The position numbers were made by a program, and so were the translations under genes. A stretch of DNA of 33,968 bases from Bacteroidales bacterium. Lineage in GTDB: Bacteria > Bacteroidota > Bacteroidia > Bacteroidales > JAADGE01. A model generated the notes under the pieces. The model saw only the letters and a list, made by a program, of their open reading frames with translations, was not told the DNA's origin and did not search any database. The stretch is taken from the NCBI GenBank assembly GCA_029934705.1, contig JAOZLS010000007.1, positions 1 through 33,968 of the forward strand. The letters are read 5' to 3'. This document shows positions 5,137 to 32,501 of this stretch, in pieces; the first letter of the stretch is position 1, and every line of letters begins with the position of its first letter.

Positions 5137-5176
5137 TAGCATCTAAAAATAATTTTTAAAAAAAATGCAAACTTAT

Positions 5177-5207
5177 TTTTTAAATTAAAAAAATAATATT
5201 ACGTTTG
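5177..5207 (+). promoter_or_regulatory. Promoter of tRNA-Leu
   Basis: A TACGTTTG box (5200-5207) matches the Bacteroidota -7 consensus TAnnTTTG exactly, with a TTTT element at 5177-5180 at 19-bp spacing in the -33 position. Transcription would start near 5213, seven bases before the tRNA. Confidence 0.7.
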
Positions 5208-5219
5208 CACTCGCTTAAT

Positions 5220-5301
5220 GCGGATGTGGTGAAATTGGCAGACACGGTAGACTTAGGATCTGCTGCTTTCGGGCGTGGGGGTTCGAGTCCCTTCATCCGC
5301 A
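5220..5301 (+). tRNA. tRNA-Leu (anticodon UAG)
   Basis: The 7-bp acceptor stem pairs GCGGATG (5220-5226) with CATCCGC (5294-5300), with discriminator A at 5301. The anticodon stem GTAGA/TCTGC (5247-5251/5259-5263) encloses the loop CTTAGGA, giving anticodon TAG at 5254-5256 (reads CUA and related Leu codons). A long class II variable arm (about 5264-5276) fits leucine, and TTCGAGT forms the T loop at 5282-5288. The 3' end reads ACAA, so CCA is not fully encoded and must be added after transcription. Confidence 0.97.
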
Positions 5302-5304
5302 CAA

Positions 5305-5336
5305 AAACCGCCTGTTTTTACAGGCGGTTTATTTTT
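5305..5336 (+). terminator. Rho-independent terminator after tRNA-Leu
   Basis: A perfect 10-bp GC-rich stem AAACCGCCTG/CAGGCGGTTT (5305-5314/5321-5330) with a 6-nt loop is followed by ATTTTTATT. It ends the tRNA transcript and lies only about 30 bp before the trigger factor gene. Confidence 0.88.
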
Positions 5337-5368
5337 ATTATGACTATTTTAACTCTAATAATAGAAGA

Positions 5369-14600: not shown

Positions 14601-14633
14601 AAAAAAGGCTACCATTAGGTAGCCTTTTTTTTT
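14601..14633 (+). terminator. Rho-independent terminator of pckA
   Basis: A 13-bp stem with GC core GGCTACC/GGTAGCC (14607-14613/14618-14624), an ATTA loop, and flanking A-run and T-run. The A-run makes it potentially functional for the converging ftsZ transcript too. Confidence 0.92.
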
Positions 14634-14807: not shown

Positions 14808-16295
14808 TTAATCAGGTTTTTCGTGTAAAAACCTATTATTTTCGCCTAAAAACACATCATTGTTCCGTGTTGACATAGTATATTTAGACATATTTTCAGT
14901 ATCATAATCTTTATCTAAATCAATATCAACATTCTTTCTTTTGTATGCAGGTTCGTCTTCTAATTCTTCAATATGACTTTTATAATTACGAATTTTATGT
15001 GGAGGATTGCTATTATTATAAGAAGGCTCAGACTCTTGAACAGTAGTTTTAACAGACACATCAATTTGTGAATCAGTATTTAAACTATTATCTGGACCAT
15101 TTTTATTATTAGAATTATAACCTATAAAAGTTTCTTCTTCAGAAAATGCTACACTATCATCAAGAGTTACAATTTTAACTTTAGGTTTTGATTCATCGTT
15201 AGTAGTTTCTACCTCAAAACGAATATCTTCATTTATAGGTGTAGGTTCTTCTTTTTCAAGGGGTACAGTTTTACTTTCTTTAGTTTTTCCTTCGTCTGCT
15301 CTTAAATAAATTTCATTAATATCTTGAGTTTTAAAACCTGTAGCAATAACAGTAACAGCTACCGATTCTTCTAATGTTTCGTCAATAGAACTACCCCAAA
15401 TAAGGTCAGCAATATTTCCTGTTGCAGCTTGAACATACTCATTAATAATTGAAATTTCATCCATGGTTACTTCCTTAGTTCCCGATGAAATATTTAAAAG
15501 AATATCTCCAGCTCCTTCAATATCATTATTATCTAAAAGCGGTGAACTTAGTGCGGCCTTAACTGCTTCTTCGGCTCTATTATCGCCAGTAGCAACACCA
15601 GTTCCCATTAGAGCTATTCCACTATCTTTCATAACAGTTTTTACATCTGCAAAATCGACGTTTACATGCCCTTTTTTAGTAATAATTTCAGCAATCCCTT
15701 TGGCTGCGACAGTTAAAACCTCATCTGCCATAGCAAGAGCTTTTCGTGCTTCAAAGTTACCGTATATTTCTCTTAACTTTTCATTATTAATAATAAGCAA
15801 TGAGTCAACATGCTTGCTCATTTCTTGTATTCCATCAATTGCTTGATTGAGTCTTTTTTTCCCTTCGTACCTAAAAGGAAGCGTAACAATACCTACAGTT
15901 AAAATACCCAAATCTTTGGAAGCCTGAGCAATAACTGGTGCTGCACCAGTACCTGTTCCTCCGCCCATTCCGGCTGTTATGAAAATCATTCGAGTCTCCT
16001 CTCCTATTTCCTTTTTTACAATTTCAATACTTTCTATAGCAGCCTCTTTACCTTTTTCTGGCTGATTACCAGCACCTAAGCCTTCAGTCAATGTTGCTCC
16101 TAACTGAACTTTAATAGGCACAGGACTATCTTGAAGTGCTTGTGCATCGGTATTTGTAACAATAAAATCAACTCCTGTTATACCTTGTTTATACATGTGA
16201 TTTACGGCATTACTACCACCACCACCTACTCCAAGTACTTTAATTATTGCTGATACATTTACAGGCATCTGAAAATCCAATAAATCCCCTTCCAT
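14808..16295 (-). CDS. ftsZ: Cell division protein FtsZ
   Basis: 495 residues from the ATG at 16295 (MEGDLLDFQ); the frame also allows a GTG at 16322, nine codons earlier, which is less likely. This is the tubulin-like GTPase that forms the Z ring at midcell. Motifs: VGGGGSNAV, the GTP-binding signature GGGTGTG (111-117) and the T7 loop NVDFADVK. A variable acidic linker of about 160 residues leads to a C-terminal peptide NNRFLHEKPD of the Bacteroidota kind, which binds FtsA and other partners. It is the last gene of the dcw cluster, 42 bp after ftsA, and is transcribed with ftsQ and ftsA. Confidence 0.97.
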   Translation of the reverse strand: MEGDLLDFQMPVNVSAIIKVLGVGGGGSNAVNHMYKQGITGVDFIVTNTDAQALQDSPVPIKVQLGATLTEGLGAGNQPEKGKEAAIESIEIVKKEIGEETRMIFITAGMGGGTGTGAAPVIAQASKDLGILTVGIVTLPFRYEGKKRLNQAIDGIQEMSKHVDSLLIINNEKLREIYGNFEARKALAMADEVLTVAAKGIAEIITKKGHVNVDFADVKTVMKDSGIALMGTGVATGDNRAEEAVKAALSSPLLDNNDIEGAGDILLNISSGTKEVTMDEISIINEYVQAATGNIADLIWGSSIDETLEESVAVTVIATGFKTQDINEIYLRADEGKTKESKTVPLEKEEPTPINEDIRFEVETTNDESKPKVKIVTLDDSVAFSEEETFIGYNSNNKNGPDNSLNTDSQIDVSVKTTVQESEPSYNNSNPPHKIRNYKSHIEELEDEPAYKRKNVDIDLDKDYDTENMSKYTMSTRNNDVFLGENNRFLHEKPD

Positions 16296-16337
16296 AATTT
16301 CTAATTTTTTATTTATTTTCACTTTAAATTAACAAAG

Positions 16338-17687
16338 TTATAATTCTTTATCATTATCATTTATAAACTGAAGAAGCGTTTGCTTAAAGTTTGAAAATCG
16401 ACCTCCTGCTTTTAGATTTTTAGATTTATCATCTTTTTCAAGCTCTTCTTTTTCATCTACTTTAGCTTCATTTGTTATATTTTGCTCTTCTATATTCTTT
16501 TTAACAGCCCTACCTAAGCTTTCAAATTCAAATTGTTGTTCTTCTTCAATACCTAACATTATTAGACCAACAGCAGTTGAATACTTTGGGTTACTAATAG
16601 TTCTTGTAGAAGTTACTAAGTTTACTCCTGGACGAGATAATTTAACATCCAAACCTAAACGATACTTCATTAATTGTGGTAAATGTTTTAGTAAAGCTCC
16701 TCCTCCTGTAAGTGATATTCCAGCTCCAATTCGGTCTCTATATCCTGATTGTAGAAGTTCTAAATCAATTATTTCACAAATTTCTTCAACTCTAGCTTGA
16801 ATTATTTCAGCAACTAACTTTACTGAAATATTTTGAGCTTCGCGTCCATTAATTCCTTCAACTGTTACTAAAGTATCATTATCAGCAAACTCGCTTAATG
16901 CTACTCCATGTTGAACTTTGAGAGTTTCGGCTTTATTATGTAATATTTTGCAACCTACTTTTAAGTCAGTTGTTATTACATCGCCTCCAAATGGGATAAC
17001 TGCTGTATAACGCAGAATACCTTCGTAATAAACTGCCAAGTCAGTTGTTCCTCCTCCAATATCAACTAAAGCTACTCCTGCTTCTTTTTCTTCGCTAGTA
17101 AGTACTGCTCTACTCGATGCTAATGGCTCTAAGAAAAGTTTTTTTGCATTCAAGTTTAGTCTTTCAACGCAAAGTCTAATATGCTTAGAAGATATCACTT
17201 TCCCAATAATAATATTAAAATTACCCGAAAGTCTTTTCCCAAACATGCCAATAGGCGTATGAATTCCGCTGTTAGCATCTACTATAAATTCTTGAGGAAT
17301 AACGTGTAGGATTTCGTCGCCAGGGTCTAATGCACTCTGGTTTATTTCAAAAATCATTTTATCAACATCATCTTTAGTTATTTCAAATTCTTTAGATTCG
17401 ATCATAACCGAGTGATTTGTTTGCCGAGTATGCATATAAACACCAGCAATGCCAATATATACCTCTTTAAATTTAATATCCGTTTTTTCCTGAACAGAGT
17501 CAATTGCTTTTTTAACTGCTTGAGAAACCTGATCAACATTTAACGGAACACCTCTTTTTACGCTCCCTTTTGGGGTAGGAACGCTTCCCATGCCGAGTAT
17601 TCGGACTTTTCCTTTTTCTGTAACTTCGCCAGCAATTGCAACAATTTTAGTTGTTCCAATGTCTATGGCTGTAATAATTTTCATCAT
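16338..17687 (-). CDS. ftsA: Cell division protein FtsA
   Basis: 449 residues. The actin-like fold shows phosphate-1 motif AIDIGTTK (residues 7-14), phosphate-2 VDIGGGTTDLAVY, and an adenosine motif (LTGGGALL). Between them lies the FtsA-specific 1C domain. The C-terminus has a charged linker and then an amphipathic helix (FSNFKQTLLQFI) that should tether the protein to the membrane. It anchors FtsZ filaments to the inner membrane and recruits later division proteins. The start is one of two adjacent ATGs (17687 or 17684). It follows ftsQ by 26 bp. Confidence 0.96.
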   Translation of the reverse strand: MMKIITAIDIGTTKIVAIAGEVTEKGKVRILGMGSVPTPKGSVKRGVPLNVDQVSQAVKKAIDSVQEKTDIKFKEVYIGIAGVYMHTRQTNHSVMIESKEFEITKDDVDKMIFEINQSALDPGDEILHVIPQEFIVDANSGIHTPIGMFGKRLSGNFNIIIGKVISSKHIRLCVERLNLNAKKLFLEPLASSRAVLTSEEKEAGVALVDIGGGTTDLAVYYEGILRYTAVIPFGGDVITTDLKVGCKILHNKAETLKVQHGVALSEFADNDTLVTVEGINGREAQNISVKLVAEIIQARVEEICEIIDLELLQSGYRDRIGAGISLTGGGALLKHLPQLMKYRLGLDVKLSRPGVNLVTSTRTISNPKYSTAVGLIMLGIEEEQQFEFESLGRAVKKNIEEQNITNEAKVDEKEELEKDDKSKNLKAGGRFSNFKQTLLQFINDNDKEL

Positions 17688-17713
17688 AACTGTGTCTCTG
17701 ATTTAAGGGGTTT

Positions 17714-18490
17714 TTAATTATTTTTAGTGCAAATTATCTGATTATTATACTTCAAGCTTATTTGGCTATATTGTCGCCATCCTTCTTTATTAAGATTATT
17801 GATATAAAAATGTTTTAAATATCCCATTTTTTTCTCAAAATTACTTTCATCTCCCAATAAAACAATGTGTCTTCCTACACGTGGAACTAGCTCATATTCC
17901 TTATTTTTATTAATGTAAACCTGCGTTATTTGTGATTTTAAAAACTTATCGTTTTCAATTATTTTTGCTAATTTATATATATTTTTAATCGTACTAGTAA
18001 CTAAACTGTCATTAGCAATATCTATTGTTTCATTATTATATTTTGCTGTAAAATTACCATTTGCAACTAAAACTCTAACAGTATTTACAAGCGATAAAGG
18101 AAATATTGCCCCTTCATTACTTATATAAAAGCTATTATTTTTTTTATCAATTATTCTAACAATTGGCTTTCTTACTTCTATATCAATTTCTAAAACTCCT
18201 CTATATTTTTTATAAACATCTGCATTTTTAATTGATGGGTGACTCTCTATTTCAAATTCAAGCATTGCTAAATCAAGCTTATTACCTGTTATGCTTGTAA
18301 AATTTGGATATTTACTATAAACCATATCCTGAATTTCGTTTTCGCTTATCAATTTTACACCTGTTTCTTTAACATAATTTACTTTAATAGATTTATTAAG
18401 TTTATTATTATGAAAAAAGACAAATAGTACTACTGCTACTGTAAAAACAGCAGTTACTACTAATAATAATATTTTATTGTGCCTTGTCAT
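17714..18490 (-). CDS. ftsQ: Cell division protein FtsQ/DivIB
   Basis: 258 residues: a short cytoplasmic tail, one TM segment (about 7-27), then a periplasmic part with a POTRA-like region (starting VNYVKETGVKLISENEI) and a beta domain containing the VRKPIVRIID strand and SFYISNEGAIFPLS, typical of the family. It bridges early cytoplasmic division proteins and the FtsW/FtsI synthase in the periplasm. Family sequence conservation is low, so the call rests on topology, the beta-domain motif and its place between murC and ftsA. A perfect consensus promoter lies 25 bp upstream. Confidence 0.92.
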   Translation of the reverse strand: MTRHNKILLLVVTAVFTVAVVLFVFFHNNKLNKSIKVNYVKETGVKLISENEIQDMVYSKYPNFTSITGNKLDLAMLEFEIESHPSIKNADVYKKYRGVLEIDIEVRKPIVRIIDKKNNSFYISNEGAIFPLSLVNTVRVLVANGNFTAKYNNETIDIANDSLVTSTIKNIYKLAKIIENDKFLKSQITQVYINKNKEYELVPRVGRHIVLLGDESNFEKKMGYLKHFYINNLNKEGWRQYSQISLKYNNQIICTKNN

Positions 18491-18514
18491 TTTTTAAATA
18501 AAAATTATTTTTTT

Positions 18515-18545
18515 CAAAATTAAAGTAAACTTTACAATTTACAAA
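18515..18545 (-). promoter_or_regulatory. Internal dcw promoter for ftsQ-ftsA-ftsZ
   Basis: On the minus strand TTTG (18545-18542), a spacer of exactly 19 bp, and TAATTTTG (18522-18515) match the Bacteroidota consensus TTTG-N19-TAnnTTTG at every fixed position. Transcription would begin near 18508, about 18 nt before the ftsQ ATG. It lies in the 140-bp gap between murC and ftsQ, the largest gap in the cluster. Confidence 0.85.
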
Positions 18546-18630
18546 ATAATATTCAAGCTTTTTAACTTATTTTCAGCAAATTAGCTTGTTTAAACTCAAT
18601 CTAAATATCAAATAGAGTTATATAACTTTT

Positions 18631-20028
18631 TTACTGTCTATTACTTATCATTTTTTTTATTAATTCCACTTTTGTTCCAACATCTCCTGCTCCAATTGTA
18701 AGCAAAACGTCAAACTCCTTATTCTTCAATACATTTAGCATTTCATCCTTATTACAAATTGTTTTATTTTGGATTGAAACTTTATCAAAAATCATGTTTG
18801 AACTAACTCCTTGAATTGGTTCTTCTCTTGCAGGATAAATATCTAACAAAATTAACTGGTTCAATAAGTTTAAACTTTCTGCAAATTCATCGGCAAAATC
18901 CCTTGTCCGAGTAAATAAATGAGGTTGAAAAACTCCTAAAATATTTTTGTCTGGATAAATTTCTGCTACCGAATTAATAAAAGCTTTTAATTCTTCGGGA
19001 TGATGTGCATAATCATCGATAAAAACGAGCTTTTCTGTATTAATTACATAGTCGAACCTTCGTTTTACTCCTGTCCAAGTTTTTAGTGCATTAATAATTG
19101 TAACATCATCAATACCATGTATAACAGCAACAGCAGCTGCGGCTATAGCATTTTCAATATTTAATGTACCGGGTATTTTTAATTCTATATTAGAAATAAT
19201 TTTATTGGGACAAACTAAATCGAACGTACTAGAAGTACGGGAATTTTTTACATTTGTTGCATAAAAATCAGACTTTTCTTCCAAAGAATATGTAAAAACA
19301 TTCTTTGGGTAAAATTTATCTTCTAATTGAATTCCTTGTTTAATTAATAAAGTTCCGTTCTTATTTATTTGCCCTGCAAAAGTTCCAAAAGTATTGTACA
19401 AATCCTCAATTCCTGAATAAATATCCAAATGATCCTCGTCAATTGAAGTTATAACAGCAGTTTCGGGGAAAAGATGTAAAAATGAGCGATCAAATTCATC
19501 GGCTTCGGTAACTAAAAACTCAGCCTCTGAACTATTATTTGCTAATAATAAATTTGAATTAAAATTTTTAGATATTCCTCCTAAAATAGCGTTAGTACTT
19601 TTGCTTGAGACATTAAATATATGTGCCAATATAGTTGAAACAGAAGTTTTACCATGAGTTCCTGATACTGCAAGTGTTTTATGATTTTCTGATATCAGTC
19701 CTAATATTTGGGAACGCTTTTTTATTTCAATATTATTATTAGTGAAATATTGAAGTTCGGTATTCTTAAAATTAATTGCAGGTGTGTATATCACTAACAA
19801 TTCTTCTTTCAAACATGTTTTAAAAGCATTGGGAATTAAACTTACATCATCGGTAAAATGAATAGAACAACCTATTTCCTCCAAAGAATTAGTGATTACC
19901 GAAGGAGTTTTGTCGTATCCTGCAACAATATTACCTGAAGCAATAAAATATTTTGCTAAGGCACTCATTCCTATCCCACCAATTCCAATGAGATAAACAA
20001 ATTTCTTATGTCTATTTTTCTGTTTCAA
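18631..20028 (-). CDS. murC: UDP-N-acetylmuramate--L-alanine ligase
   Basis: 465 residues. It adds L-Ala to UDP-MurNAc using ATP, the first step of the stem peptide, in the cytoplasm. Motifs: Rossmann GIGGIGMSALA (15-25), P-loop GTHGKTSVS (123-131), and DEFDRSFL and DYAHHPEE in the catalytic and C-terminal domains. Start choice: the only usual start codon before the Rossmann loop is TTG at 20028; a TGA lies five codons upstream in frame and the next ATG is inside GIGM. It begins 5 bp after the upstream lipoprotein stop codon, so it is probably translationally coupled. Confidence 0.96.
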   Translation of the reverse strand: MKQKNRHKKFVYLIGIGGIGMSALAKYFIASGNIVAGYDKTPSVITNSLEEIGCSIHFTDDVSLIPNAFKTCLKEELLVIYTPAINFKNTELQYFTNNNIEIKKRSQILGLISENHKTLAVSGTHGKTSVSTILAHIFNVSSKSTNAILGGISKNFNSNLLLANNSSEAEFLVTEADEFDRSFLHLFPETAVITSIDEDHLDIYSGIEDLYNTFGTFAGQINKNGTLLIKQGIQLEDKFYPKNVFTYSLEEKSDFYATNVKNSRTSSTFDLVCPNKIISNIELKIPGTLNIENAIAAAAVAVIHGIDDVTIINALKTWTGVKRRFDYVINTEKLVFIDDYAHHPEELKAFINSVAEIYPDKNILGVFQPHLFTRTRDFADEFAESLNLLNQLILLDIYPAREEPIQGVSSNMIFDKVSIQNKTICNKDEMLNVLKNKEFDVLLTIGAGDVGTKVELIKKMISNRQ

Positions 20029-20033
20029 AGTAT

Positions 20034-20906
20034 TTACTGTTCAATGTTTAAGACTAGGTCAATGTCAGATAAAAGTCTTGCTATTTCGGCATTATTCTTC
20101 TGTTTTCTTAATAATTCGGCATGTAGTAAATTTAATTTTTCGGCAGTAATTTTAAGACTTTGAATTCTTCCTATAACTGCTTGTTTTTTCTTATATGCAT
20201 CGTCTCTAAGTTGTAATTTATATAAACCAAGAAGAACATCAGAGTCACTATACGGCTCATTAACAAGTAATTCTACTTTTTGAATATCAAAAGCTGAATT
20301 AGGAACTTTTTTTAGTCCTTTGTCATAAGCTAAAAATAAATGATTTAATATTTCAGATTGTTTATCAATGTCTTCAATAAAAATTTTCAAGAATATTTGA
20401 TTTACGGCAAGAATTATATCTTTACGCTCAAATTTGTTTGAGTTTGCTGCTTTATATATTTGATCTATTAATATTTTGTCATCCTCTGAAACATTCAAAC
20501 TTGAAGCTAAGGAGCAAAATCTATCAATATTATAAACAATTCCTGATTTTTCAAGACCAATAGTAAGGTCTGAAAGTAATTCGTAGGACTGATAAACAGC
20601 TGATGTTTTTTGAACAAAATCGGATATACTGTCTAATTGCAAATTGTTAAAATTAATGTTACTATATAAATTAACAATAGAAGTATCTGATTTTGTTAAG
20701 ATTTCGAGATACTCTCTTTTATAATCAAAATAATAATTCATTTCGTTTAATGTAGCATATAGCTCATTAACTTGCTGCATGAGTACACGCCCTCGTTGGG
20801 CAGCATCTCTTTGACTAGACTGAAAAGTAGTGTCGTTAGTACATGAACTAATAAATGCAAAAAATGCAACGGACACGAAAACTAAATATTTTTTCATTTT
20901 ATTCAT
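20034..20906 (-). CDS. Unrecognised lipoprotein embedded in the dcw cluster
   Basis: 290 residues. A lipoprotein signal ends in a lipobox FISSC (Cys at about 22; start ATG at 20906 or 20897). The rest is mostly alpha-helical with heptad-like stretches (AAQRGRVLMQQVNELYATL; the C-terminal LHAELLRKQKNNAEIARLL), few cysteines, no aromatic-rich binding motif and no catalytic signature. It would be anchored in the inner or outer membrane facing the periplasm. I do not recognise the family. The gene begins 3 bp after the murG stop and ends 5 bp before the murC start, so it is part of the same transcript. Position and topology suggest a role in septal peptidoglycan synthesis or envelope linkage; that is inference only. 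Confidence 0.88.
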   Translation of the reverse strand: MNKMKKYLVFVSVAFFAFISSCTNDTTFQSSQRDAAQRGRVLMQQVNELYATLNEMNYYFDYKREYLEILTKSDTSIVNLYSNINFNNLQLDSISDFVQKTSAVYQSYELLSDLTIGLEKSGIVYNIDRFCSLASSLNVSEDDKILIDQIYKAANSNKFERKDIILAVNQIFLKIFIEDIDKQSEILNHLFLAYDKGLKKVPNSAFDIQKVELLVNEPYSDSDVLLGLYKLQLRDDAYKKKQAVIGRIQSLKITAEKLNLLHAELLRKQKNNAEIARLLSDIDLVLNIEQ

Positions 20907-20909
20907 AGC

Positions 20910-22040
20910 TTAATCATTTTTATTAACTATAAGTTTTAATACTTCATCAGCAATTATGTTTGCTGAATTTAAAAAAGCAAATTTTGAAATATTTTCAGAC
21001 AAATCTTTTATTAAAGATTCATTATTAACTAATTTTAATGTTTCACCAATAAGTTGGTCGTTTGTATTTGAGTCTTTAACTAAAATAGCTGCATTATTCT
21101 CAAGTAAAGCTTTAGCATTTTTTGTTTGATGGTCTTCGGCAACATTTGGCGAAGGCACTAAAATAACGGCTTTCTTTAAAATACATAATTCCGAAATAGT
21201 TCCTGCTCCTGCTCTAGAAATTACAACATCGGCAGCTTTATAAGCTAAATCCATGCGAGTAATAAAGTCGGTTACTAAAATATTTTCAGAATTGTACTTT
21301 GCTGCTGCCTCTTTTGATTCTTCAAAATAATACTTACCTGTTTGCCAAATAATTTGAACATCGGAGTCTATAATCTCATTCAATTTTACGGCTATTCCAT
21401 TATTTAAACTCCTAGCACCACCGCTACCTCCAAGGCTTAATATAACTTTCTTATTAGGATTTAATCCAAAAAACTCTATTGCTTCTGTTTTAGTACTGCT
21501 TGTTGAAATCAATTTTTCTCGAACAGGATTTCCTGTTTTTATAATTTTTTCTGAAGGAAAGAATTTTTCTAATCCATCATAAGCAACGCAAATTGTTTGT
21601 ACCTTATTTGCCAGTAATCTATTTGTTATACCAGGAAAAGAATTTTGCTCTTGTAAAAGTGCAGGTATTCCTTTTTTTGTTGCAACTTGCAAAAGTGGTC
21701 CACTTGCGTAACCACCAACTCCAACGGCGACATCTGGTTTAAATTTTCTAATTATTTTTCTTGATTTCAGCAAAGAACTTGCTAGTTTTACAAAAAATGT
21801 AAATGTTTTAATAGAAAGTTTACGCTGAAAGCCTGAAATATTGAGTAATTCAATAGCAAAACCTGCTTCTGGTACTTTTTTTTCTTCAATACGACCTTTT
21901 GCTCCAACAAAAAGAATGTTAGCATCTTTATGTTTAGCTTTAATAGCTTGTGCAATAGCAATTGCGGGGAATAGGTGTCCACCCGTTCCTCCTCCACTAA
22001 TGATTATATTTGGTTTATTGTTTTTCAAAATCTTCTTCAA
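20910..22040 (-). CDS. murG: UDP-GlcNAc--MurNAc-pentapeptide-lipid GlcNAc transferase
   Basis: 376 residues from the TTG at 22040, or 372 from a TTG at 22028. It makes lipid II from lipid I on the inner face of the membrane. Motifs: SGGGTGGHLFPAIAIA near the N-terminus (glycine-rich acceptor loop), LSLGGSGGARSLN, and the C-terminal donor site ISRAGAGTISEL with PNVAEDHQTKNA. No ATG is available: a TAA lies immediately before the codon at 22040 and no Met codon precedes the GGGTGG loop. The gene overlaps the end of ftsW by 26 or 14 nt, which suggests translational coupling. Confidence 0.96.
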   Translation of the reverse strand: MKKILKNNKPNIIISGGGTGGHLFPAIAIAQAIKAKHKDANILFVGAKGRIEEKKVPEAGFAIELLNISGFQRKLSIKTFTFFVKLASSLLKSRKIIRKFKPDVAVGVGGYASGPLLQVATKKGIPALLQEQNSFPGITNRLLANKVQTICVAYDGLEKFFPSEKIIKTGNPVREKLISTSSTKTEAIEFFGLNPNKKVILSLGGSGGARSLNNGIAVKLNEIIDSDVQIIWQTGKYYFEESKEAAAKYNSENILVTDFITRMDLAYKAADVVISRAGAGTISELCILKKAVILVPSPNVAEDHQTKNAKALLENNAAILVKDSNTNDQLIGETLKLVNNESLIKDLSENISKFAFLNSANIIADEVLKLIVNKND

Positions 22041-23148
22041 TTACGTTTAATGATGTAATTCTACTAACATTTAATATTATTCCTACAGCAAAGCTGTTAA
22101 TAAATAACGAGGTGAGCCCCGAACTAACAAAAGGTAATGTTTGCCCTGTTACGGGAAGTAAATTTACTGCTACTCCCATGTGAACAAACGACTGAAATAC
22201 AATGCTAAGAGTAAGTCCTATTGTTAAAAATATTGCATAAGGCTTTTTCGATTGACTAGCAATTGCAAGACCACGATGAAAAAATATAACAAAAAACAAT
22301 AGTATTATACTACTTAACCACAAACCATATTCCTCAACTGTATAAGCAAATACAAAATCGTTATGAGACTGTGAAAATACATATTTCATAACTCCATTAC
22401 CAGGACCTTCACCCCAAAAGCCACCTTTAACAATAGCTGCCTTAGCAATTGAAACTTGAATACCTGATGTATCCATTAATCTTGACAAGCCTGTTAATAA
22501 TCTATTAGGAAAATCAAAAGCATAAGCAACAAATGAATATATTGCAACAAGACCTACAACCAATAATATAAAAGACATTAAATATTTAACAGCAATTTTT
22601 CCAATAAACAGTAACAATATAATAATAGCAAGTAAAATTGCAGCAGTTGATATATCAGCAGGGAAAATAAGTATTACAGACAATACTGTTGCTACAGAAA
22701 TTTTAATCATTGCTTTCTTAAAATCAATTCTATTTAGGTATAATAAGGTTAATATGCGAGCAACAAACATTATTAGTGCGACTCTAGCTAAGTCGGATGT
22801 TTGTATTTCAATTAGTCCAAAAATATTTAACCAACGCTTTGCACCGTTATGTTCTGTTCCCCAAATTAATGTAAGAACTAATAAAAATATTGCAATACTT
22901 GCAAAATGCTTAGAAAATTTAAAGTAAAATTTAAAAGGTATTATATGTGCTATATATATAATTACCATTGAACCAATAAGACCCAATACTTGTTTCCACA
23001 AAAACCCTGATGTATCGCCTTCAAAAAATCGATATGCTTCGTAGCCCGACGCACTATATACGACTGGAATAGAAAACAACATAAGAAGTAACACTATAGA
23101 CCATAGTGTTTTATCTCCTTTCAATTCTATTTTTTCAAAGTGTAACAT
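22015..23148 (-). CDS. ftsW: Lipid II polymerase FtsW (SEDS family)
   Basis: 377 residues with about ten membrane segments. SEDS features: KQVLGLIGSM early, GAKRWLNI, and the late GLTSLFINSF with VGIILNVSR. It polymerises lipid II into septal glycan strands together with the FtsI transpeptidase encoded upstream in the cluster. RodA is a paralogue, but the position between murD and murG identifies FtsW. Start ATG at 23148, 5 bp after murD; its end overlaps murG. Confidence 0.95.
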   Translation of the reverse strand: MLHFEKIELKGDKTLWSIVLLLMLFSIPVVYSASGYEAYRFFEGDTSGFLWKQVLGLIGSMVIIYIAHIIPFKFYFKFSKHFASIAIFLLVLTLIWGTEHNGAKRWLNIFGLIEIQTSDLARVALIMFVARILTLLYLNRIDFKKAMIKISVATVLSVILIFPADISTAAILLAIIILLLFIGKIAVKYLMSFILLVVGLVAIYSFVAYAFDFPNRLLTGLSRLMDTSGIQVSIAKAAIVKGGFWGEGPGNGVMKYVFSQSHNDFVFAYTVEEYGLWLSSIILLFFVIFFHRGLAIASQSKKPYAIFLTIGLTLSIVFQSFVHMGVAVNLLPVTGQTLPFVSSGLTSLFINSFAVGIILNVSRITSLNVIEEDFEKQ

Positions 23149-23153
23149 AAATT

Positions 23154-24488
23154 TTATAATTCTCTAACAGCTTGTTTAAATTTTCTACCTCTATCTTCGT
23201 AATTATCAAACAAATCAAAGCTTGAACATGCAGGGGAGAGCAGTACTAGTTCACCTTCATCTGCTAATGAAAAAGCTTTTACTACAGCCTCATCCATAGA
23301 TTTTGTGTCGTAAAGTTCAGTTATACCAAAAAAGGCATCAAAAATCTTAGAGTTATCGTTTCCTAATGCAACAATTGCTTTAACTTTCTGCTTAACAAGC
23401 TCTTTTAGTGAACTATAGTCGTTACCTTTATCAATACCACCAAGAATTAATACTATATCTTCCTCGTAGGTTTGCAGTGCGTACCAAACAGCGTTTACGT
23501 TAGTTGCTTTTGAGTCATTTATAAAACGTACTCCTCGTACTTTAATAAATTTTTCAAGTCTATGCTCAACTCCTTCAAAATTTGAAAAACTAGATTTAAG
23601 TTCTTCGTTGCGAATTTCGCTTAATTTGGAGGTAATTCCTGCCGCCATAGAATTATAGCGATTGTGAATTCCATCCAAAGATAATTTATCAGCTCCCATG
23701 CTAAATATATTTTTATCAATTATTATTTTTAATTCATTATCAATAGTATATGCTCCTTTTGTTACTTCACCTTTGATTGTAAAAGGGTACATATCTGCAT
23801 TGATTTTTCTTTTTTCAACCTCTCGTTGAATTATTTCATCATCGGCACAATAAATAAATTTATCAGCCTTAGTCATATTATTAACTATTCTAAATTTTGA
23901 ATCTATATAATCCTGAAAATCATAATCATAGCGGTCTAAATGGTCTGGTGTTATATTAAGTAGAATTGCTATATCTGCTTTAAATTCAAACATTCCATCT
24001 AGCTGAAAACTACTTAATTCGATAACAAAAAAATCGTAATTAAAATTTGCGACTTGCTCTGCCAAAGACTGTCCAACATTACCAGCTATTCCTACATTTA
24101 ATCCTGCATTTTTAAGTATAAAATAGATTAACTCAGTTGTGGTGGTTTTGCCATTGCTTCCTGTAATACAAATAAATTTTGCATTAGTAAAGCGAGCTGC
24201 AAATTCAATTTCGGAAATAACTTTAATGCCTTTATCCAATGCTTCCTTTACAACAGGAGCTTTTTCGGGTATCCCAGGGCTTTTAATTATTTCGTCGGCA
24301 TTTAGTATAAATTCAGAACTATGTTTATTTTCTTCAAAATGAATATTATTATCAGAAAGTATTTTTTTATATTTTGGAGAAATAGCTGAAAAATCGGACA
24401 CAAATACATCATAGCCTTGTTTTTGGGCTAATAATGCTGCTCCAGTTCCGCTTTCGCCAGCTCCTAATATTACTTTTCTGTTTTTCAT
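23154..24488 (-). CDS. murD: UDP-N-acetylmuramoylalanine--D-glutamate ligase
   Basis: 444 residues. It adds D-Glu to UDP-MurNAc-L-Ala in the cytoplasm. Motifs: N-terminal nucleotide-binding GAGESGTG (9-16), KSPGIP (69-74), P-loop TGSNGKTTTTE (109-119), NITPDHLDRY, FINDSKATN and the C-terminal LLSPACSSFD with RGRKFKQAV. It starts 6 bp after mraY and ends 5 bp before ftsW, so it is tightly packed in the cluster. Confidence 0.97.
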   Translation of the reverse strand: MKNRKVILGAGESGTGAALLAQKQGYDVFVSDFSAISPKYKKILSDNNIHFEENKHSSEFILNADEIIKSPGIPEKAPVVKEALDKGIKVISEIEFAARFTNAKFICITGSNGKTTTTELIYFILKNAGLNVGIAGNVGQSLAEQVANFNYDFFVIELSSFQLDGMFEFKADIAILLNITPDHLDRYDYDFQDYIDSKFRIVNNMTKADKFIYCADDEIIQREVEKRKINADMYPFTIKGEVTKGAYTIDNELKIIIDKNIFSMGADKLSLDGIHNRYNSMAAGITSKLSEIRNEELKSSFSNFEGVEHRLEKFIKVRGVRFINDSKATNVNAVWYALQTYEEDIVLILGGIDKGNDYSSLKELVKQKVKAIVALGNDNSKIFDAFFGITELYDTKSMDEAVVKAFSLADEGELVLLSPACSSFDLFDNYEDRGRKFKQAVREL

Positions 24489-24494
24489 TATTAG

Positions 24495-25721
24495 TTATCT
24501 TATTTTTAATGTTAAAATTGTTATTAATGCTAGTAAAATTCCTACAATCCAGAATCGTGTTACAATTTTTGATTCAGGAAAACCTTTGAGTTGAAAATGA
24601 TGATGCAAAGGTGCCATCTTGAAAATTCGTTTTCCTACACCAAATCGTTTTTTTGTATATTTAAAATATCCTACCTGCAAGATTACTGAGAAATTTTCCA
24701 CAACAAATACTCCTGCTAATACAGGTAATAAAAGTTCTTTACGAATAAGAATTGCAAATACTGCTATAATTCCTCCTAGAGTTAAACTGCCTGTATCGCC
24801 CATAAATACTTGAGCAGGAAATGAGTTATACCAAAGAAAGCCGATTGTTGCTCCAATAAATGCACTTGCAAAAATTACAAGTTCACCAATTTGTGGGATA
24901 TACATTATATTCAAATAATCGGCAAAAATTAGGTTACCCGAAACGTAGGCAAATATCCCAAGTGTTGTTCCCATAATAGCAGAAGTACCAGCGGCTAAAC
25001 CATCAAGACCATCGGTCATGTTTGCACCATTTGAGACGGCTGTTATCATAAAAATAACTAACAAAATAAAAATCATCCAAGCGGCTTTTTGCTTGTATTC
25101 GCCTGCAAAATTGACTAACCATGAATAATCAAATTCATTATCTTTAAAAAATGGTATTGTTGTTTTTAATGATTTATCAACAGTTATTGGTATTTCTTGT
25201 TGAACAAGTATTTCGGTATTATTTAAAACATTAGCCTGCGGATTTTCTCTAATTTGGATATCGTTACTTAAATAAAAAGTTAAACCAACGATAAGCCCTA
25301 GTCCTACCTGACCGTATATTTTATATCTGCCAGACAATCCACCTTTATCATTTTTAAATGTTTTAATATAATCGTCGATAAATCCAATAATGCCAAGCCA
25401 AACAGTGGTAACTAACATTAATATAATATACACATTACTTAAATCGGCAAATAAAACAACAGGTATAATAATAGCTGCTATAATAATAAGCCCACCCATT
25501 GTTGGAGTTCCTTTCTTTTGGTATTGTCCCTCGAGACCTAAATCGCGAACAACCTCTCCTATTTGTTTTTTTTGTAGAATATTAATTAATTTTTTACCCC
25601 AAATTAATGACACCAACAACGATGTTATTGCAGCCAAAGCGGCTCTAAACGAGATGTATTTAAACAATCCCGCTCCCATAAAATCTATTTTATCTAAATA
25701 TTCAAAAAGAAAATAAAACAT
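24495..25721 (-). CDS. mraY: Phospho-N-acetylmuramoyl-pentapeptide transferase
   Basis: 408 residues with about ten membrane segments. It attaches phospho-MurNAc-pentapeptide to undecaprenyl phosphate to make lipid I. Motifs: GTPTMGG near residue 70, FIDDYIKT, the catalytic [19 protein letters not shown] and the HHHFQLKG loop. It has an extra hydrophilic stretch of about 60 residues between membrane segments (near residues 155-215, ending before KAAWMIF), making it longer than the roughly 320-360 residues of most MraY proteins; this insert is usual in Bacteroidota. Gap to murE 11 bp. Confidence 0.97.
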
Positions 25722-25732
25722 TGTTGTTTTTT

Positions 25733-27184
25733 TTAATTCAATAATTCACTAATAATTTCTTTGTCATCAAAATGAGTTTTCACTCCATCTATTTCTTGAT
25801 AGCTTTCGTGTCCTTTTCCTGCTATTAATATTATATCGTTTTTCTTAGCTAGCATAACAGATGTTTTAATTGCTTGTTCTCTGTCTGTTATTCTTAACAT
25901 TATATTTTTTTGTTCTTCATTTAGCCCTTGTTCCATATCGTCTAAAATATGCTCTGGATTTTCTGACCTTGGATTATCCGAAGTAAGAATTACTCTATTG
26001 CTGTATTTAGCAGACATTTGAGCCATAATTGGTCTTTTAGTTTTATCTCTATCGCCACCAGCACCAACAACTGTAATAATTTCTTGTTCGTTTGTTATTA
26101 TCTTATTTATTGTTTTTAAAACATTTTCTAAAGCATCGGGAGTGTGAGCATAATCAACAATAGCCGTAATTCCCTTTCCTGTAACAATATCAAATCGTCC
26201 TTTTACTGATTTAAGTGTGCTTAATTTTGTTAGAATTTCTTCTTTTTCAATATTTAAAATACTAGCTACAGCGTAAACACTTAAAACATTATACACATTG
26301 AATAAACCTGGCAGTAAAGTCCACATTTCAACACCATTAATACTTACTAAGCTGCCATTAATTATGGTTTCAACAATTTTTGCTTTATAGTCGGCAACAC
26401 TCTGTAAAGAGTATGTAAGTTTCTCGGCTTTTGTATTTTGCAACATTACCATACCATTTTTATCGTCGATATTTGTTAATGCAAAAGCATTTTTAGCTAA
26501 CATATCAAAAAACTGTTTTTTTACTTTTAGATATTCAGCAAAAGTATTATGATAGTCAAGGTGATCGTGAGTAATATTTGTAAAAACGCCTCCTGCAAAG
26601 TTAAGTCCGCTAACTCTATTTTGAGCTAAAGCGTGAGAGCTAACTTCAATAAAACAGTATTGGCATTTTTGCTCTACCATTTCGGCTAACAACTTATTTA
26701 ATGATATAGAATCTGGTGTTGTGTGCGTTGCAACAATTTCTCTATCATTAATAAAATTTGCTACTGTTGATAACAGTCCTGTATTTTCACCTAGTTTTAT
26801 AAACAATTCGTATAAAAGAGTTGCTACTGTGGTTTTTCCATTTGTACCAGTAACACCAACGAGCTTCAGCTTTGACGATGGGTTTCCGTAAAACTCAGAA
26901 GCAATTATTCCCATAGCCTCGGCTGAATTATTTACTTTAATAAGTACTGTGTCCTTGTATGTTTGATTTTGAGTTTCCTCACAAACCACAGCAACTGCTC
27001 CATTTTTAATAGCAGTATCTATATATTTATGCCCGTCGGTTTTTGTTCCTTTGACTGCAAAAAACATATAACCAGGTTTAGCTGCACGTGAGTCAAAACA
27101 GAGACCTTCTATTTTGAGATCCGTGTTTCCTATAACAACTGGATTTGTTAAGTTTTTAATTATATGTTCTAATACTACAGACAT
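25733..27184 (-). CDS. murE: UDP-MurNAc-tripeptide synthetase MurE (meso-DAP type)
   Basis: 483 residues. It adds the third amino acid to UDP-MurNAc-L-Ala-D-Glu. Motifs: [10 protein letters not shown] near the N-terminus, P-loop GTNGKTT (113-119), [26 protein letters not shown] and DNPRSENP (403-410). The DNPR form is known from enzymes that take meso-diaminopimelate rather than L-lysine, so the organism should have DAP-type peptidoglycan. It lies 3 bp after ftsI. Confidence 0.97.
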
Positions 27185-27187
27185 TAT

Positions 27188-29329
27188 TTATACTAATTTT
27201 AATTTTATTTTATCACCATCTTTAAATTTTGTTCCTGGTTTTAATGATTGAGAACTAACAAAACCACGTCCTTCAATTTCAACCTTTAGTCCCATTGATT
27301 CTAATAAATATATAGCATCGTTTACTGCCATATATGTAACTGTTGGGACTATATTTTTATGTAAATTCAAGTTTTTATATTCTACAGAATTTTTATGCGT
27401 ACATGTAAATACCCAAGGACTATTTTTGTTACTTTTATTTTCAGTTTGAACTAAAATTGAAGAAAATACGTAACTCAAATCTTTTTGATACCCATTTTTT
27501 GATACAGGGATATCTACATAATGTAAATTTCCTAAATCTTTATTTTTAGGAGGATTCAACTCATAATCTTGAGAGAATATTTTATCAGAAATCTTTTTAA
27601 AAACAGGAGCTGCTACATTACTTCCAAATTTATTTTTTCCTGGAGGTCTGTTAATTACTACTATAATTGAGTACTTAGGTTTACTTGCAGGAAAATAACC
27701 AACAAAAGATGTTCTGTTAATATCTAAAAACTTTTTTTGTTCGTGATCCCAATATTTTGCAGTACCTGTTTTTCCTGCAATACTATATCCGTTTGTTTTT
27801 ATAGTAGCAGCAGTTCCGCCTTTTTTAAGAACAGCCTCAAGAACAAATTTCACTTTTTTTAGATTTTGTTGAGAACATATTGTTTTTACCTCCTTGTTGT
27901 CAAAGACTTTAACTGTTTCACCATGTCTTTTTAAAGCTTTTACAATAGATGGTTTTATTAATTTACCATCGTTTGCAATTGCATTATAAAAAGTTAAAAT
28001 TTGAATAGGAGTTAACTTAACTTCATAACCATGCGACATCATCATTGGAGTTACTTTTGACCAATTACTTGTTTTATCTTTTATCATAGGATAGGTTTCT
28101 CCATCAATATCAATATCCGAATAATCTGATAATCCAAAACTTATTAATCTATTAAGTAATAAGTGTACTCTGTTCTTCATAAAATAATTTTCGTACACAA
28201 TTTTTGCCATTCCTACATTGGACGATTTTGCAAACACTTTCCAAACAGGAATTTTACCATAAGCACCTTCATCTAAAATTTCTTTATCGTAATATTTTAC
28301 ATACCCATGTTCAGTGTCAATTGTATCGTTTAAATCAACAAAGCCATCTTCAAGTGCAGCTAATAATATAGGAAGTTTAAATGTAGATCCTGGCGCTAAC
28401 GATTCTACAACAGCATAGTTTTGATCTTCAAAAGCAGTACTATCCTCTTGCATTGTTAAATTTGCAATAGCTTTTATATTTCCTGTTTTAACCTCCATTA
28501 CTACAACAGAACCATGATTAGCTTTATGTTTAAGTATTTGTTTTTTTAATACTTCATTTACATAATCTTGCAAATCGATGTCAATAGATGTAACAAGGCT
28601 AAGCCCTTCCTCTGTTTTAACAATTTCGCCACCAGAGACATTTATCCAAACGCCTTTCGATATTTTTCTTTTTAATGCTTTTCCTAAAGTTCCCGAAAGT
28701 TCGCTATTATATGTAAATTCTAGTTCTGTAGTTCCAAAAGCAGGAGTAGTCTCAGTTTCAGGCTTCACCAAGCCTAATGTTCTACGCATTAGATTACCTA
28801 AAGGTCTAATTCTTGTACCTTCTTTTATTTTAATAAATCCGCCACCATTTGGTCCATATTTAAAAATTGGGAAATTGATCAGAGCCTCAACTTCTCTGTA
28901 ATCACAGTTTACTGCAATAGGTAAATATCTATTTGAGTTTGTTCTTGCCTCTAAAATATAATCGTAATATTCTTGTTTTGTTTTATCTTTAAAAAGTAGG
29001 GCTAAATGACTCGAGAGAGAATCAACACCTTCATCAAATCTTTTGTCAGTAAGACCTCCAGCCCGAGTGTCCATAAATATTTTATAATAATATACTGTAG
29101 TGGATAATACATTTCCTTTTTCATCAAATATATCGCCACGTTCAGGGTTACCTTCTTTTAAATTTATAGAGTATTCTTTTGCAACCTTTTCCCACCTTTC
29201 TTTTTGAAAAAACATAACTTGTATCAAACGAAACAGTATTGTAGCTGCCACAAGCAGTACAATAATATATAAGACACTTGACCTTAGCAAAATGTCTTCT
29301 CTGTTTTTTATGTTTTTTTCTGTACTCAT
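27188..29329 (-). CDS. ftsI: Septal transpeptidase FtsI/PBP3 with C-terminal PASTA domain
   Basis: 713 residues. One N-terminal TM segment (about 18-40), a PBP dimerisation domain (about 55-230), a transpeptidase domain with nucleophile Ser315 in PGSTFK, SSN (369-371) and KTG (520-522), and a C-terminal PASTA domain (about 650-713, VPTVTYMAVNDAI). It cross-links septal peptidoglycan in the periplasm with FtsW. The PASTA tail is familiar from Bacteroidota and Gram-positive versions but absent from E. coli FtsI. It starts 6 bp after ftsL. Confidence 0.96.
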   Translation of the reverse strand: MSTEKNIKNREDILLRSSVLYIIVLLVAATILFRLIQVMFFQKERWEKVAKEYSINLKEGNPERGDIFDEKGNVLSTTVYYYKIFMDTRAGGLTDKRFDEGVDSLSSHLALLFKDKTKQEYYDYILEARTNSNRYLPIAVNCDYREVEALINFPIFKYGPNGGGFIKIKEGTRIRPLGNLMRRTLGLVKPETETTPAFGTTELEFTYNSELSGTLGKALKRKISKGVWINVSGGEIVKTEEGLSLVTSIDIDLQDYVNEVLKKQILKHKANHGSVVVMEVKTGNIKAIANLTMQEDSTAFEDQNYAVVESLAPGSTFKLPILLAALEDGFVDLNDTIDTEHGYVKYYDKEILDEGAYGKIPVWKVFAKSSNVGMAKIVYENYFMKNRVHLLLNRLISFGLSDYSDIDIDGETYPMIKDKTSNWSKVTPMMMSHGYEVKLTPIQILTFYNAIANDGKLIKPSIVKALKRHGETVKVFDNKEVKTICSQQNLKKVKFVLEAVLKKGGTAATIKTNGYSIAGKTGTAKYWDHEQKKFLDINRTSFVGYFPASKPKYSIIVVINRPPGKNKFGSNVAAPVFKKISDKIFSQDYELNPPKNKDLGNLHYVDIPVSKNGYQKDLSYVFSSILVQTENKSNKNSPWVFTCTHKNSVEYKNLNLHKNIVPTVTYMAVNDAIYLLESMGLKVEIEGRGFVSSQSLKPGTKFKDGDKIKLKLV

Positions 29330-29335
29330 TAATTT

Positions 29336-29665
29336 TTACATTTTTTCTATTATTATTCTTTTATGAGGACTTTTTGGCAATTTTAATCCTCTAGAAATAA
29401 TAAAACTATCTTTTAATAATTTTGATTCTCTACCAAAATTCACTAATTCTTCTTCAATTTCTGTATTATCAAATTTAATATTTCGTAATTCATTAATTAT
29501 ATCTTCTTTTTCGTGTATTATTTTTTCTACTTGGTATCTGTTTGAAACTATTATTACAGATAACACTACTAAAAATACTATAAATTTAATATGCCTAAAA
29601 TCAATTATTGGACTAATCCAATGACCCGCCAAAATGTCTTTTAATATGTTATTTTTCATTTCCAT
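29336..29665 (-). CDS. ftsL: FtsL-like division protein
   Basis: 109 residues from ATG 29665, one base after the rsmH stop. A TTG at 29683 would overlap rsmH and is less likely; another ATG lies at 29659. A cytoplasmic part of about 30 residues precedes one TM segment (about 26-42, FIVFLVVLSVIIVS) and a periplasmic coiled coil (EKIIHEKEDIINELRNI). This bitopic layout and the place between rsmH and ftsI identify FtsL despite low sequence conservation. It would form the FtsQLB-type complex that activates FtsWI. Confidence 0.85.
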   Translation of the reverse strand: MEMKNNILKDILAGHWISPIIDFRHIKFIVFLVVLSVIIVSNRYQVEKIIHEKEDIINELRNIKFDNTEIEEELVNFGRESKLLKDSFIISRGLKLPKSPHKRIIIEKM

Positions 29666-29666
29666 A

Positions 29667-30587
29667 TCAAACTTTTTCAGCAATTCTTAGTTTAGCACTT
29701 CTCGATCTAGTATTTTTTTCTATTTCCTCTTTAGAAGGAATTATAACTTTTCTATTTATAGGTTTAAAAATTCTTTCTTGGTTACCAAAAACATCAGCTT
29801 CTCTTTTACCTTCAAAATTTCCATTTTTAATATAATTTTTTACTAACCTATCCTCCAAAGAATGATAAGTAAGAACCGATAACCTCCCTCCTATTTTAAT
29901 TACATCTCCTGTTTGAACTAACAAACTTTCCAGAGCTTCCATTTCTCCATTTGTTTGAATTCTTAATGCTTGGTATAATTTTGCCAAATATTTATATTCT
30001 TTAAACTTAGGTGCATTTTTAGATGCTATTTCGTTAAATTGCTCTACAGTTTCTATTTTTTCGTCTTCTCTACTTTTTATAATATTTTTTACTAAATGGT
30101 ACGGGTTACCAATTTCACCATAGTTTTTAAATATCTTATATAAATCTTCTTCAGTATATTCATTAATAATATTAATTGCTGAAAAGTTCGATTTATTATT
30201 CATTCTCATATCAAGTTTTCCTTCTAACATAAAAGAGAAACCTCTAGTACCAACATCAAATTGGTGAGACGAAACTCCTAAATCAGCCAAAACACCATCA
30301 ACTTTTGGGTAGTTATAATATTTTAAAAAATTCTTTATATATTTAAAATTACTTCTTACAAACTTTAACTTACCTGAACCAAATTCTTCAATTAAATTTT
30401 CTGCATTTACTATTGCATCTTCATCTTGGTCAAAAGCAATTAACAAACCAGTATCTAATTTTTCAAGAATAAGTCTGGAATGCCCTCCGCCACCAAAAGT
30501 AACATCAACATACACTCCATCGGGCTTAATATTTAAGCCTTCAACAGTTTCGTTTACCAAAACGGGTATGTGATATTTTTCAGACAT
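29667..30587 (-). CDS. rsmH: 16S rRNA m4C1402 methyltransferase RsmH
   Basis: 306 residues. It methylates N4 of C1402 in 16S rRNA with S-adenosylmethionine. Motifs: HIPVLVNETVEGL at the start, SAM-binding DVTFGGGGHS (about 29-38), LADLGVSSHQFD, RGFSF, LRIQTNGEM and LTYHSLEDRLVK, with the basic end SRSAKLRIAEKV. It lies 13 bp after mraZ and directly before ftsL, the conserved mraZ-rsmH(mraW)-ftsL order. Confidence 0.97.
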   Translation of the reverse strand: MSEKYHIPVLVNETVEGLNIKPDGVYVDVTFGGGGHSRLILEKLDTGLLIAFDQDEDAIVNAENLIEEFGSGKLKFVRSNFKYIKNFLKYYNYPKVDGVLADLGVSSHQFDVGTRGFSFMLEGKLDMRMNNKSNFSAINIINEYTEEDLYKIFKNYGEIGNPYHLVKNIIKSREDEKIETVEQFNEIASKNAPKFKEYKYLAKLYQALRIQTNGEMEALESLLVQTGDVIKIGGRLSVLTYHSLEDRLVKNYIKNGNFEGKREADVFGNQERIFKPINRKVIIPSKEEIEKNTRSRSAKLRIAEKV

Positions 30588-30600
30588 AAACCAGTTATTT

Positions 30601-31074
30601 TTATTCGTCTATATTTGTTGTAGGCAAATTGCCTCCCATTATTTTCTCGGCAAGTGCAGCAAAATCATCTGCATCTTCTTCTATATTTTCATAAGCTTGC
30701 TTAGACCAAATTTCGATCTTCTTATCTTGTCCTGACAAAACAACGCTATCTGAAATTTGACCAAACTCCAACAGTCGCGAAGGAATAAGTAGTCTATTGT
30801 TAGAGTCTAAATTTACTTCGGCAGTTCCTCTATAAAATTCTCGTAAAAACCTAGCATGCTCCCTATTGTATGGATTTAACCCAGCTCTAATTATGCTGTT
30901 TTGCCTTTCCCATTCTTCTGAAGTATATAAAATGAGGCATTTTTCAAAAACATCTTTTTTTACTACAAATGTTAATGGCTGATTTTCGGGCAATTGTTTT
31001 TTAAACGCGGAGGGTAGAATAAATCTCCCTTTCACGTCAACTTTACCTGTATAATCGCCAACAAAACTTGCCAT
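30601..31074 (-). CDS. mraZ: Transcriptional regulator MraZ
   Basis: 157 residues with two SpoVT/AbrB-like DNA-binding repeats: VDVKGRFILPSAFK (about 12-25) and LDSNNRLLIPSRLLE (second half). MraZ forms ring-shaped oligomers that bind direct repeats of a TGGG-type motif and repress the dcw operon, including its own gene. Matching repeats lie just upstream (31119-31153). The last 25 residues are acidic. First gene of the division and wall cluster; ATG at 31074. Confidence 0.96.
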   Translation of the reverse strand: MASFVGDYTGKVDVKGRFILPSAFKKQLPENQPLTFVVKKDVFEKCLILYTSEEWERQNSIIRAGLNPYNREHARFLREFYRGTAEVNLDSNNRLLIPSRLLEFGQISDSVVLSGQDKKIEIWSKQAYENIEEDADDFAALAEKIMGGNLPTTNIDE

Positions 31075-31285: not shown

Positions 31286-31999
31286 TTATTTTTTAAGCTC
31301 AAGTATATATTTTATACTACCTGAATTTTCAATACACTCATATTCAATAATATTTTCAAAATCGGTAAAATATTTTTCAGGAATTCTTTCTCCTAAACTA
31401 CGGTTACAGTAAAATAATATTTGTTCTTTTATAGATTTTTGCTGAAAGCCTAAAGATAAAAAAGATTTACCTAAACCCCAATCAACATCGACATAAGTCA
31501 TTATATTATCAGGTTTATAATCTCGAATATATGATTTTAGAAGTTTACTTAAGCCACCAACTACAGTTGTAAAATTTTTATTACAAAAGCGTAGCATTTC
31601 AGCTGATTTACCACTTACAAACTTACGTTGTCCTGCAAAACTAGCAACAGAAACAAGCTCGTCTTTATAAAAAAGTCCTATTTTATGTTTTGATGCTGTT
31701 GAGCCATAAATATGATTTTCGTCGAGAAATTTATTGGCATCAATTTTATTTATTTTACGAATTTCGCAATTTCGGGCAAAGATTCTTCTATTAATCCCAA
31801 GTATTGCACTTATTTTGCTTTTAATAATATTAGGTTTGCGAATCCACCAATCTTCAAAAACTACAAATGTATTTTCACTTTTATTGTATGTTTTATAGTT
31901 TTTAAAAGCTAAAAAAGCTACTTCTGTATTTTTGTATTCTTGAATATTATTAGTTACAAGAAATTGTTGTAGCCAAGTATGAAAATCTTCCTTTTGCAT
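31286..31999 (-). CDS. GNAT-like protein of phage-endonuclease-associated type, function unknown
   Basis: 237 residues. The middle and C-terminal part (about 90-190) shows the sequence HIYGSTASKHKIGLFY, ELVSVASFAGQRK, AEMLRFCNK, VVGGLSKLLKSYI, MTYVDVDWGLGK and LGFQ. I recall this pattern as a domain fused to, or standing beside, phage-encoded homing-type endonucleases, with an acetyltransferase-like layout (a GGLSKLLK loop at the CoA-binding position). No nuclease motif is visible here. The N-terminal 90 residues contain WWIRKPNIIKSKISAIL and are unassigned. It has its own good promoter (32071-32101) and lies just upstream of mraZ in the same direction, separated by 211 bp. The acyltransferase idea and the link to phages are from memory and unproven. 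Confidence 0.65.
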   Translation of the reverse strand: MQKEDFHTWLQQFLVTNNIQEYKNTEVAFLAFKNYKTYNKSENTFVVFEDWWIRKPNIIKSKISAILGINRRIFARNCEIRKINKIDANKFLDENHIYGSTASKHKIGLFYKDELVSVASFAGQRKFVSGKSAEMLRFCNKNFTTVVGGLSKLLKSYIRDYKPDNIMTYVDVDWGLGKSFLSLGFQQKSIKEQILFYCNRSLGERIPEKYFTDFENIIEYECIENSGSIKYILELKK

Positions 32000-32102: not shown

Positions 32103-32501
32103 ATGACAAAATTTTATTTAACTTTATTATTAATTGCTTTAGGTTTTTTAAATTTGAAAGCTCAAAAAGACACAATTCAGCAAAAAGACATTTTTGAAAT
32201 GACTTTAGAAGAATTAATGGAGGTTGAAGTTAAAACAGCTTCAAATATTTCGGAGTCATTTTTAGAAGCACCTGCAACGATTTATATTGTTTTAAAAGAA
32301 CAAATAATAAATAGAGGCTATACTAATTTAATTGAACTTTTAGATGATATTCCAGAGATTGAGATTCAGCATAAAAGCTCATCTGAAGAAAACTATAACC
32401 ATATTGGTATTAGAGGAGTGTCAGGAAATGAGAAATTTTTGATACTAATGAATGGTATAAAAACACCTCGAAATAAAGGTACAAATAAGGTACAAATATA
32501 A
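32103..32501 (+). pseudogene. Truncated TonB-dependent receptor (signal peptide and part of the plug)
   Basis: 132 residues: a signal peptide (cleavage likely near LKAQ), then FEMTLEELMEVEVKTASN, FLEAPATIYIV, RGYTNLIELLDDIPEIE and GIRGVSGNEKFLILMNGI, the plug domain of TonB-dependent outer-membrane receptors. Full receptors have about 600-900 residues; here the frame leaves the family pattern after MNGIK, ends at 32501, and no barrel sequence follows before the mnmE terminator. The start lies in the intergenic gap beside the GNAT-like gene, and I see no plus-strand promoter. Most likely a remnant left by a deletion; a functional plug-only protein is less likely. Confidence 0.75.

Follow-up and report, generated by a model that had tools for sequence, protein, structure and literature searches.

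The window, the whole 33,968-nucleotide stretch of Bacteroidales DNA analysed here (contig JAOZLS010000007.1), carries a complete dcw cluster on its minus strand, mraZ-rsmH-ftsL-ftsI-murE-mraY-murD-ftsW-murG-X-murC-ftsQ-ftsA-ftsZ (14808–31074), as read from open reading frames (ORFs) and their translations. The genes were named from their sequences, ftsL (29336–29683) having an FtsL_2 Pfam match, and their order is the same in relatives. As a group, dcw genes form one of the best-conserved clusters known in bacteria, and their products are mainly cytoplasmic and inner-membrane proteins; X, at 20034–20906 on the minus strand, is the one gene of the window's cluster that encodes a lipoprotein. 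Its frame runs from an ATG start to a TAA stop and encodes 290 amino acids. Directly upstream lies murG (20910–22040, minus strand; a murG match was found in 96 of 99 genomes) and directly downstream murC (18631–20028, minus strand, with a TTG start; matched in 95 of 99). X begins 3 bp after the murG stop and ends 5 bp before the murC start, exactly as a sequence-only reading of this DNA had reported, to which we add the strand.

Spacing between X and its neighbours is mostly below 70 bp elsewhere too (21 dcw copies). A consensus scan found a strong terminator-like hairpin after ftsZ (14601–14630, minus strand) and no terminator-like site on the coding strand at the murG–X or X–murC junction. 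Because of the 3–5 bp spacing and the lack of such a site at either junction, X is likely to be co-transcribed with murG and murC. X lies in a contiguous, same-orientation run of mra, fts and mur genes, at a position conserved by descent (below), and by these marks it is a dcw gene.

Upstream of mraZ and on the same strand, 31286–31999 encodes a protein with a match to phage families of homing/HNH endonucleases, in their C-terminal part (phrog_3339, E = 4e-43), and with none in Pfam. A short ORF on the plus strand (32103–32501) resembles a TonB-dependent receptor cut short after its signal peptide and plug.

Residues 1–22 of X (20841–20906, minus strand) form a signal peptide and lipobox ending FISS-C22, with Cys22 as the presumed lipidated residue. 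The lipobox context is present in 21 dcw copies and the cysteine in all 28 aligned homologues; with signal peptide, lipobox and invariant cysteine, X is a bacterial lipoprotein, as the earlier reading had described it. That reading had also called the protein helical, and an AlphaFold2 model of X, built with only seven sequences (pLDDT 85, pTM 0.82), is all helix beyond the signal peptide, with long helices at 26–70, 161–200 and 222–266. A second model, made from a relative of 27% identity (pLDDT 80), has nearly the same helix order. Conservation per 20-residue block is highest at 201–240 (28 homologues), and the most conserved segment, residues 201–233 (20208–20306, minus strand; V-P-x3-F-D-x2-K-x7-P-Y-x9-Y-K-L), is modelled as a hinge joining the two long C-terminal helices, 161–200 and 222–266. 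P202, F206, D207, K210, P218, Y219, Y229 and K230 are its conserved residues; P218 and Y229 are invariant (28/28), and F206, K210 and K230 nearly so. No catalytic residue pattern was apparent in X.

Many Bacteroidota lipoproteins are outer-membrane proteins. Surface export in this phylum has been linked to an acidic signal, K-(D/E)2 or Q-A-(D/E)2, just after the cysteine (PMC5080379). Neither form directly follows the cysteine in any of the 21 dcw copies, although the published motif may not be the one this lineage uses. Because the acidic export signal is absent, a periplasmic orientation is the more plausible, and X most likely sits on the outer membrane facing the periplasm.

X matched no known family, unrelated ones included, which agrees with the earlier description of a protein without recognizable enzyme or binding motif. 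Searches of X and 13 homologues against Pfam and NCBIfam gave scattered matches below cut-off, none common to more than two members and none to an LpoA/LpoB, CpoB, Pal or NlpD-type domain; PADLOC and PHROGs, searched with X and selected homologues, gave nothing convincing. The PDB, searched by sequence and by profile, returned three chance matches (E about 0.3). With Foldseek, neither model had a PDB match at E ≤ 0.001, nor did the first model have one among the viral structures of BFVD. The best hit, to TTYH2 (E = 0.018, TM 0.31), was rejected, and the remaining matches were generic helical bundles.

The sequence-only reading held that murC normally follows murG directly in Bacteroidota and asked whether the murG-X-murC arrangement is conserved. 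Both points were borne out within Bacteroidales. Across 91 genomes of the order, the distance between the two genes follows a bimodal distribution, spanning −8 to 188 bp in the 64 genomes without X and 881–1216 bp in the 21 with it, and every gap of the latter size holds an X homologue. These homologues are 14–45% identical to X and come from ten families of the order (f1, f11, f17, f36, f37, f56, f63, f67, f71 and f85), the slot being unchanged even at 14–20% identity. With the window's proteins as tblastn queries, nearly every homologue proved to be flanked by murG and murC. Searching 99 relatives recovered a homologue in 14 genomes, counting the window's own; when 393 genomes of the order were searched with a profile, about 23 of the 34 genomes listed held true members, the others being short matches of signal-peptide type. 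X is present in 18 of 18 genomes of genus g62 and absent from g3 and g5, both of them genera in the family to which the window belongs. Class-wide and phylum-wide samples contained no further dcw-type X; a profile scan of genome contigs with alignment A2 found six uncultured Bacteroidales MAGs only, and every named carrier in this analysis is a MAG. Weak matches at order, class and phylum level were nearly all confined to the first 50–105 profile positions, and we judged them to be signal-peptide matches to other lipoproteins.

Several murG–murC gaps have other contents. In G036 and G090 the gap measures 5.1 and 4.7 kb and a Septu-type defence pair, PtuA/PtuB, adjoins X (L016 6918–10735 and L015 9028–11003, respectively); in the latter locus, murD and ftsW are also separated by an AAA ATPase gene and a 172-aa gene (3978–5580). 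The longer gaps of G022 and G087 hold unrelated DNA in which no X remnant was seen, and an apparent long gap in G029 was an artefact of a split murG match. In G070 (L110), murG and murC share a single 823-codon open frame, possibly a MurG–MurC fusion or a lost stop. Elsewhere in these clusters, one genome of the window's family (G003) has an extra 122-aa gene between ftsW and murG (L178 9429–9797), and one from a genus without X (G009) has a different, lipoprotein-like gene of 308 codons near ftsZ and convergent with it (L177 5775–6701).

In a MurG+MurC tree of 89 genomes, 19 of the 22 carriers fall within one 28-tip clade (support 0.93), in line with the earlier proposal of a lineage-specific factor; the non-carriers inside it are G057 and genera g3 and g5. 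Presence and absence of X required five state changes on this tree, whereas 2,000 shuffles averaged 19.7 and never gave fewer than 13. Carriers from families f36 and f67 lie outside the main clade on long branches with low support, a placement that may be a tree artefact or may reflect transfer. The simplest history is one origin in the dcw cluster, after which X was inherited vertically for a long time and cleanly lost at least once; X appears to have been lost in the two sister genera, g3 and g5.

Selection was estimated from two close g62 pairs, in which dN/dS for X is 0.11 (83% identity, dS 0.83) and 0.15 (96% identity, dS 0.12); murG, to which X is close, gave 0.07 and 0.16 in the same order, and murC 0.08 and 0.06. 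X is under purifying selection and is clearly a functional protein. In two of the three pairs compared, its dN is roughly double the MurG and MurC values. The possibility that X belongs to a single strain and evolves under relaxed selection, with dN/dS near 1, is rejected by these values and by the homologues in many genomes. A frame-broken copy lies near a contig end in one of three g17 genomes (G147, L045 2–828), the other two being intact; it may reflect decay or an assembly error.

Homologues of X, here X2, also occur outside the dcw cluster in five genomes of two classes: G026, G275 and G242 from the window's order, G924 from another family of its class, and G1014 from another class. Each is followed within a few bases by Y, a gene for a protein of 111–118 amino acids (the 112-aa partner) with a hydrophobic segment at its end; the Y copies are 40–59% identical to that of G026. 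These X2–Y cassettes (L017 3867–5075, L052 7468–8677, L053 7223–8432, L150 6512–7721 and L151 7285–8614) match no known family, and one lies near transposase genes. We assigned proteins to the X/X2 family on a profile match over nearly the full length together with the P218/Y229 hinge; X2 has both and is a true homologue (profile E down to 1e-83). Y was absent from all 22 dcw carriers tested. In a tree of X, the X2 sequences group together as one clade, whose place among the dcw forms has a support of 26. The existence of X2 outside the dcw cluster with a partner of its own indicates that the X fold is not intrinsically tied to division.

Together, these results confirm and strengthen the earlier observation: X represents a new family and adds a clade-specific member to the dcw cluster. 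The new helical lipoprotein, its lineage-specific distribution, its conserved slot and the purifying selection on it all stand, and a septal or tethering role is kept as a proposal. We suggest that X would be exported by Sec, lipidated on Cys22 and retained on the side of the outer membrane that faces the periplasm, where its compact rod of long helices could dock through the hinge (F206-D-x2-K210 ... P218-Y ... Y229-K230) onto a periplasmic partner in the septal machinery. MurG and MurC are cytoplasmic proteins, and X's own neighbours would therefore not be its partners; candidates are FtsQ, FtsL, FtsI, a class A synthase or an amidase. X could then serve as a scaffold or regulator coupling septal peptidoglycan work to outer-membrane constriction. 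We rate as evenly poised the view that X is a vertically inherited, clade-specific dcw lipoprotein of the periplasm-facing outer membrane with such a septal role. The bolder formulation, in which X is an undescribed divisome component, a dcw-encoded, clade-specific outer-membrane lipoprotein coupling septal wall synthesis to outer-membrane constriction, is offered tentatively, at somewhat under an even chance. The dcw position of X, its conservation under purifying selection, its tight packing, the lipobox lacking the acidic export signal, the helical model with its conserved hinge, and the precedent of DalA (below) count for the septal reading; the entry of unrelated genes into the dcw cluster of these lineages, the roughly doubled dN and the f36 and f67 carriers outside the clade count against it. 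A division role does not follow automatically, because g3, g5 and most Bacteroidales divide without X, and because X2 lies outside the cluster beside a different partner gene.

The main rival is that X is a general envelope lipoprotein, concerned for example with outer-membrane maintenance or with peptidoglycan homeostasis outside division, that merely uses dcw transcription and does not belong to the divisome. This would fit the dispensability of X in g3 and g5, the orphan homologues and the ability of unrelated genes (the Septu pairs; the 122-aa gene at L178 9429–9797) to enter the cluster. A hitchhiker, however, ought to change position now and then, and the location of X is constant over deep divergence in the carrier clade, with tight spacing; we consider this rival unlikely, if a serious contender. 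A domesticated X2–Y copy, captured once by the dcw cluster and keeping an original activity such as envelope protection or immunity without Y, would account for the unlinked pairs in two classes, one of them near transposase genes, and for the missing Y in the dcw carriers. Yet the poorly supported position of the single X2 clade among the dcw sequences gives no direction to such a capture, plasmids contained neither X2 nor Y, and phage records contained no X2; we consider domestication improbable. Most improbable of all, in our estimate, is an inner-membrane anchor from which X, close to FtsW, would regulate how lipid II is supplied or consumed at the outer leaflet. The immediate neighbourhood of murG, ftsW and murC is suggestive of this, and the sequence does not fix the side of anchoring, but MurG and MurC, as cytoplasmic proteins, are out of reach of a lipoprotein in the periplasm, and lipoproteins of this phylum are often found in the outer membrane.

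A lipoprotein kept in the dcw cluster across several families is likely to be a lineage-specific link from septal wall synthesis to the outer membrane, a link that is, to our knowledge, poorly known in Bacteroidota. The persistence of X in a group of related, uncultured Bacteroidales suggests that the machinery by which they divide has an uncharacterized envelope component. Sister genera g3 and g5, where X was lost naturally, offer a ready comparison, and the orphan X2–Y pair a second route to what the X fold does.

X shares cluster, orientation and co-inheritance with the other Bacteroidota dcw genes from mraZ to ftsZ and differs from them in being restricted to part of one order; X2, its true homologue, differs in lying outside the cluster, with Y, scattered over two classes. 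Among characterized lipoproteins, the Gammaproteobacterial PBP1B activator LpoB acts from the outer membrane on periplasmic wall synthesis, as proposed for X, whereas X matches no Pfam family and is predicted to be all-helical. Pal, an OmpA-type peptidoglycan-binding lipoprotein, couples the outer membrane to the wall at the septum, again as proposed for X, which lacks an OmpA-type domain match. X may work like DalA, LpoB or Pal and yet is probably no member of these known families. DalA (RSP_1200) is an outer-membrane lipoprotein restricted to Rhodobacterales; it is septal, binds both peptidoglycan and proteins of the divisome, and is co-purified with FtsZ and Pal (PMC10470522). Both it and X are order-restricted lipoproteins, and DalA is a proposed scaffold of septal peptidoglycan enzymes, the role we infer for X. 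The two come from different phyla, and DalA is septal and peptidoglycan-binding, whereas X, known here from its sequence, lies in the dcw cluster. Compared by role and not by sequence, a DalA-like scaffold or regulator is the best analogy for what X may do.
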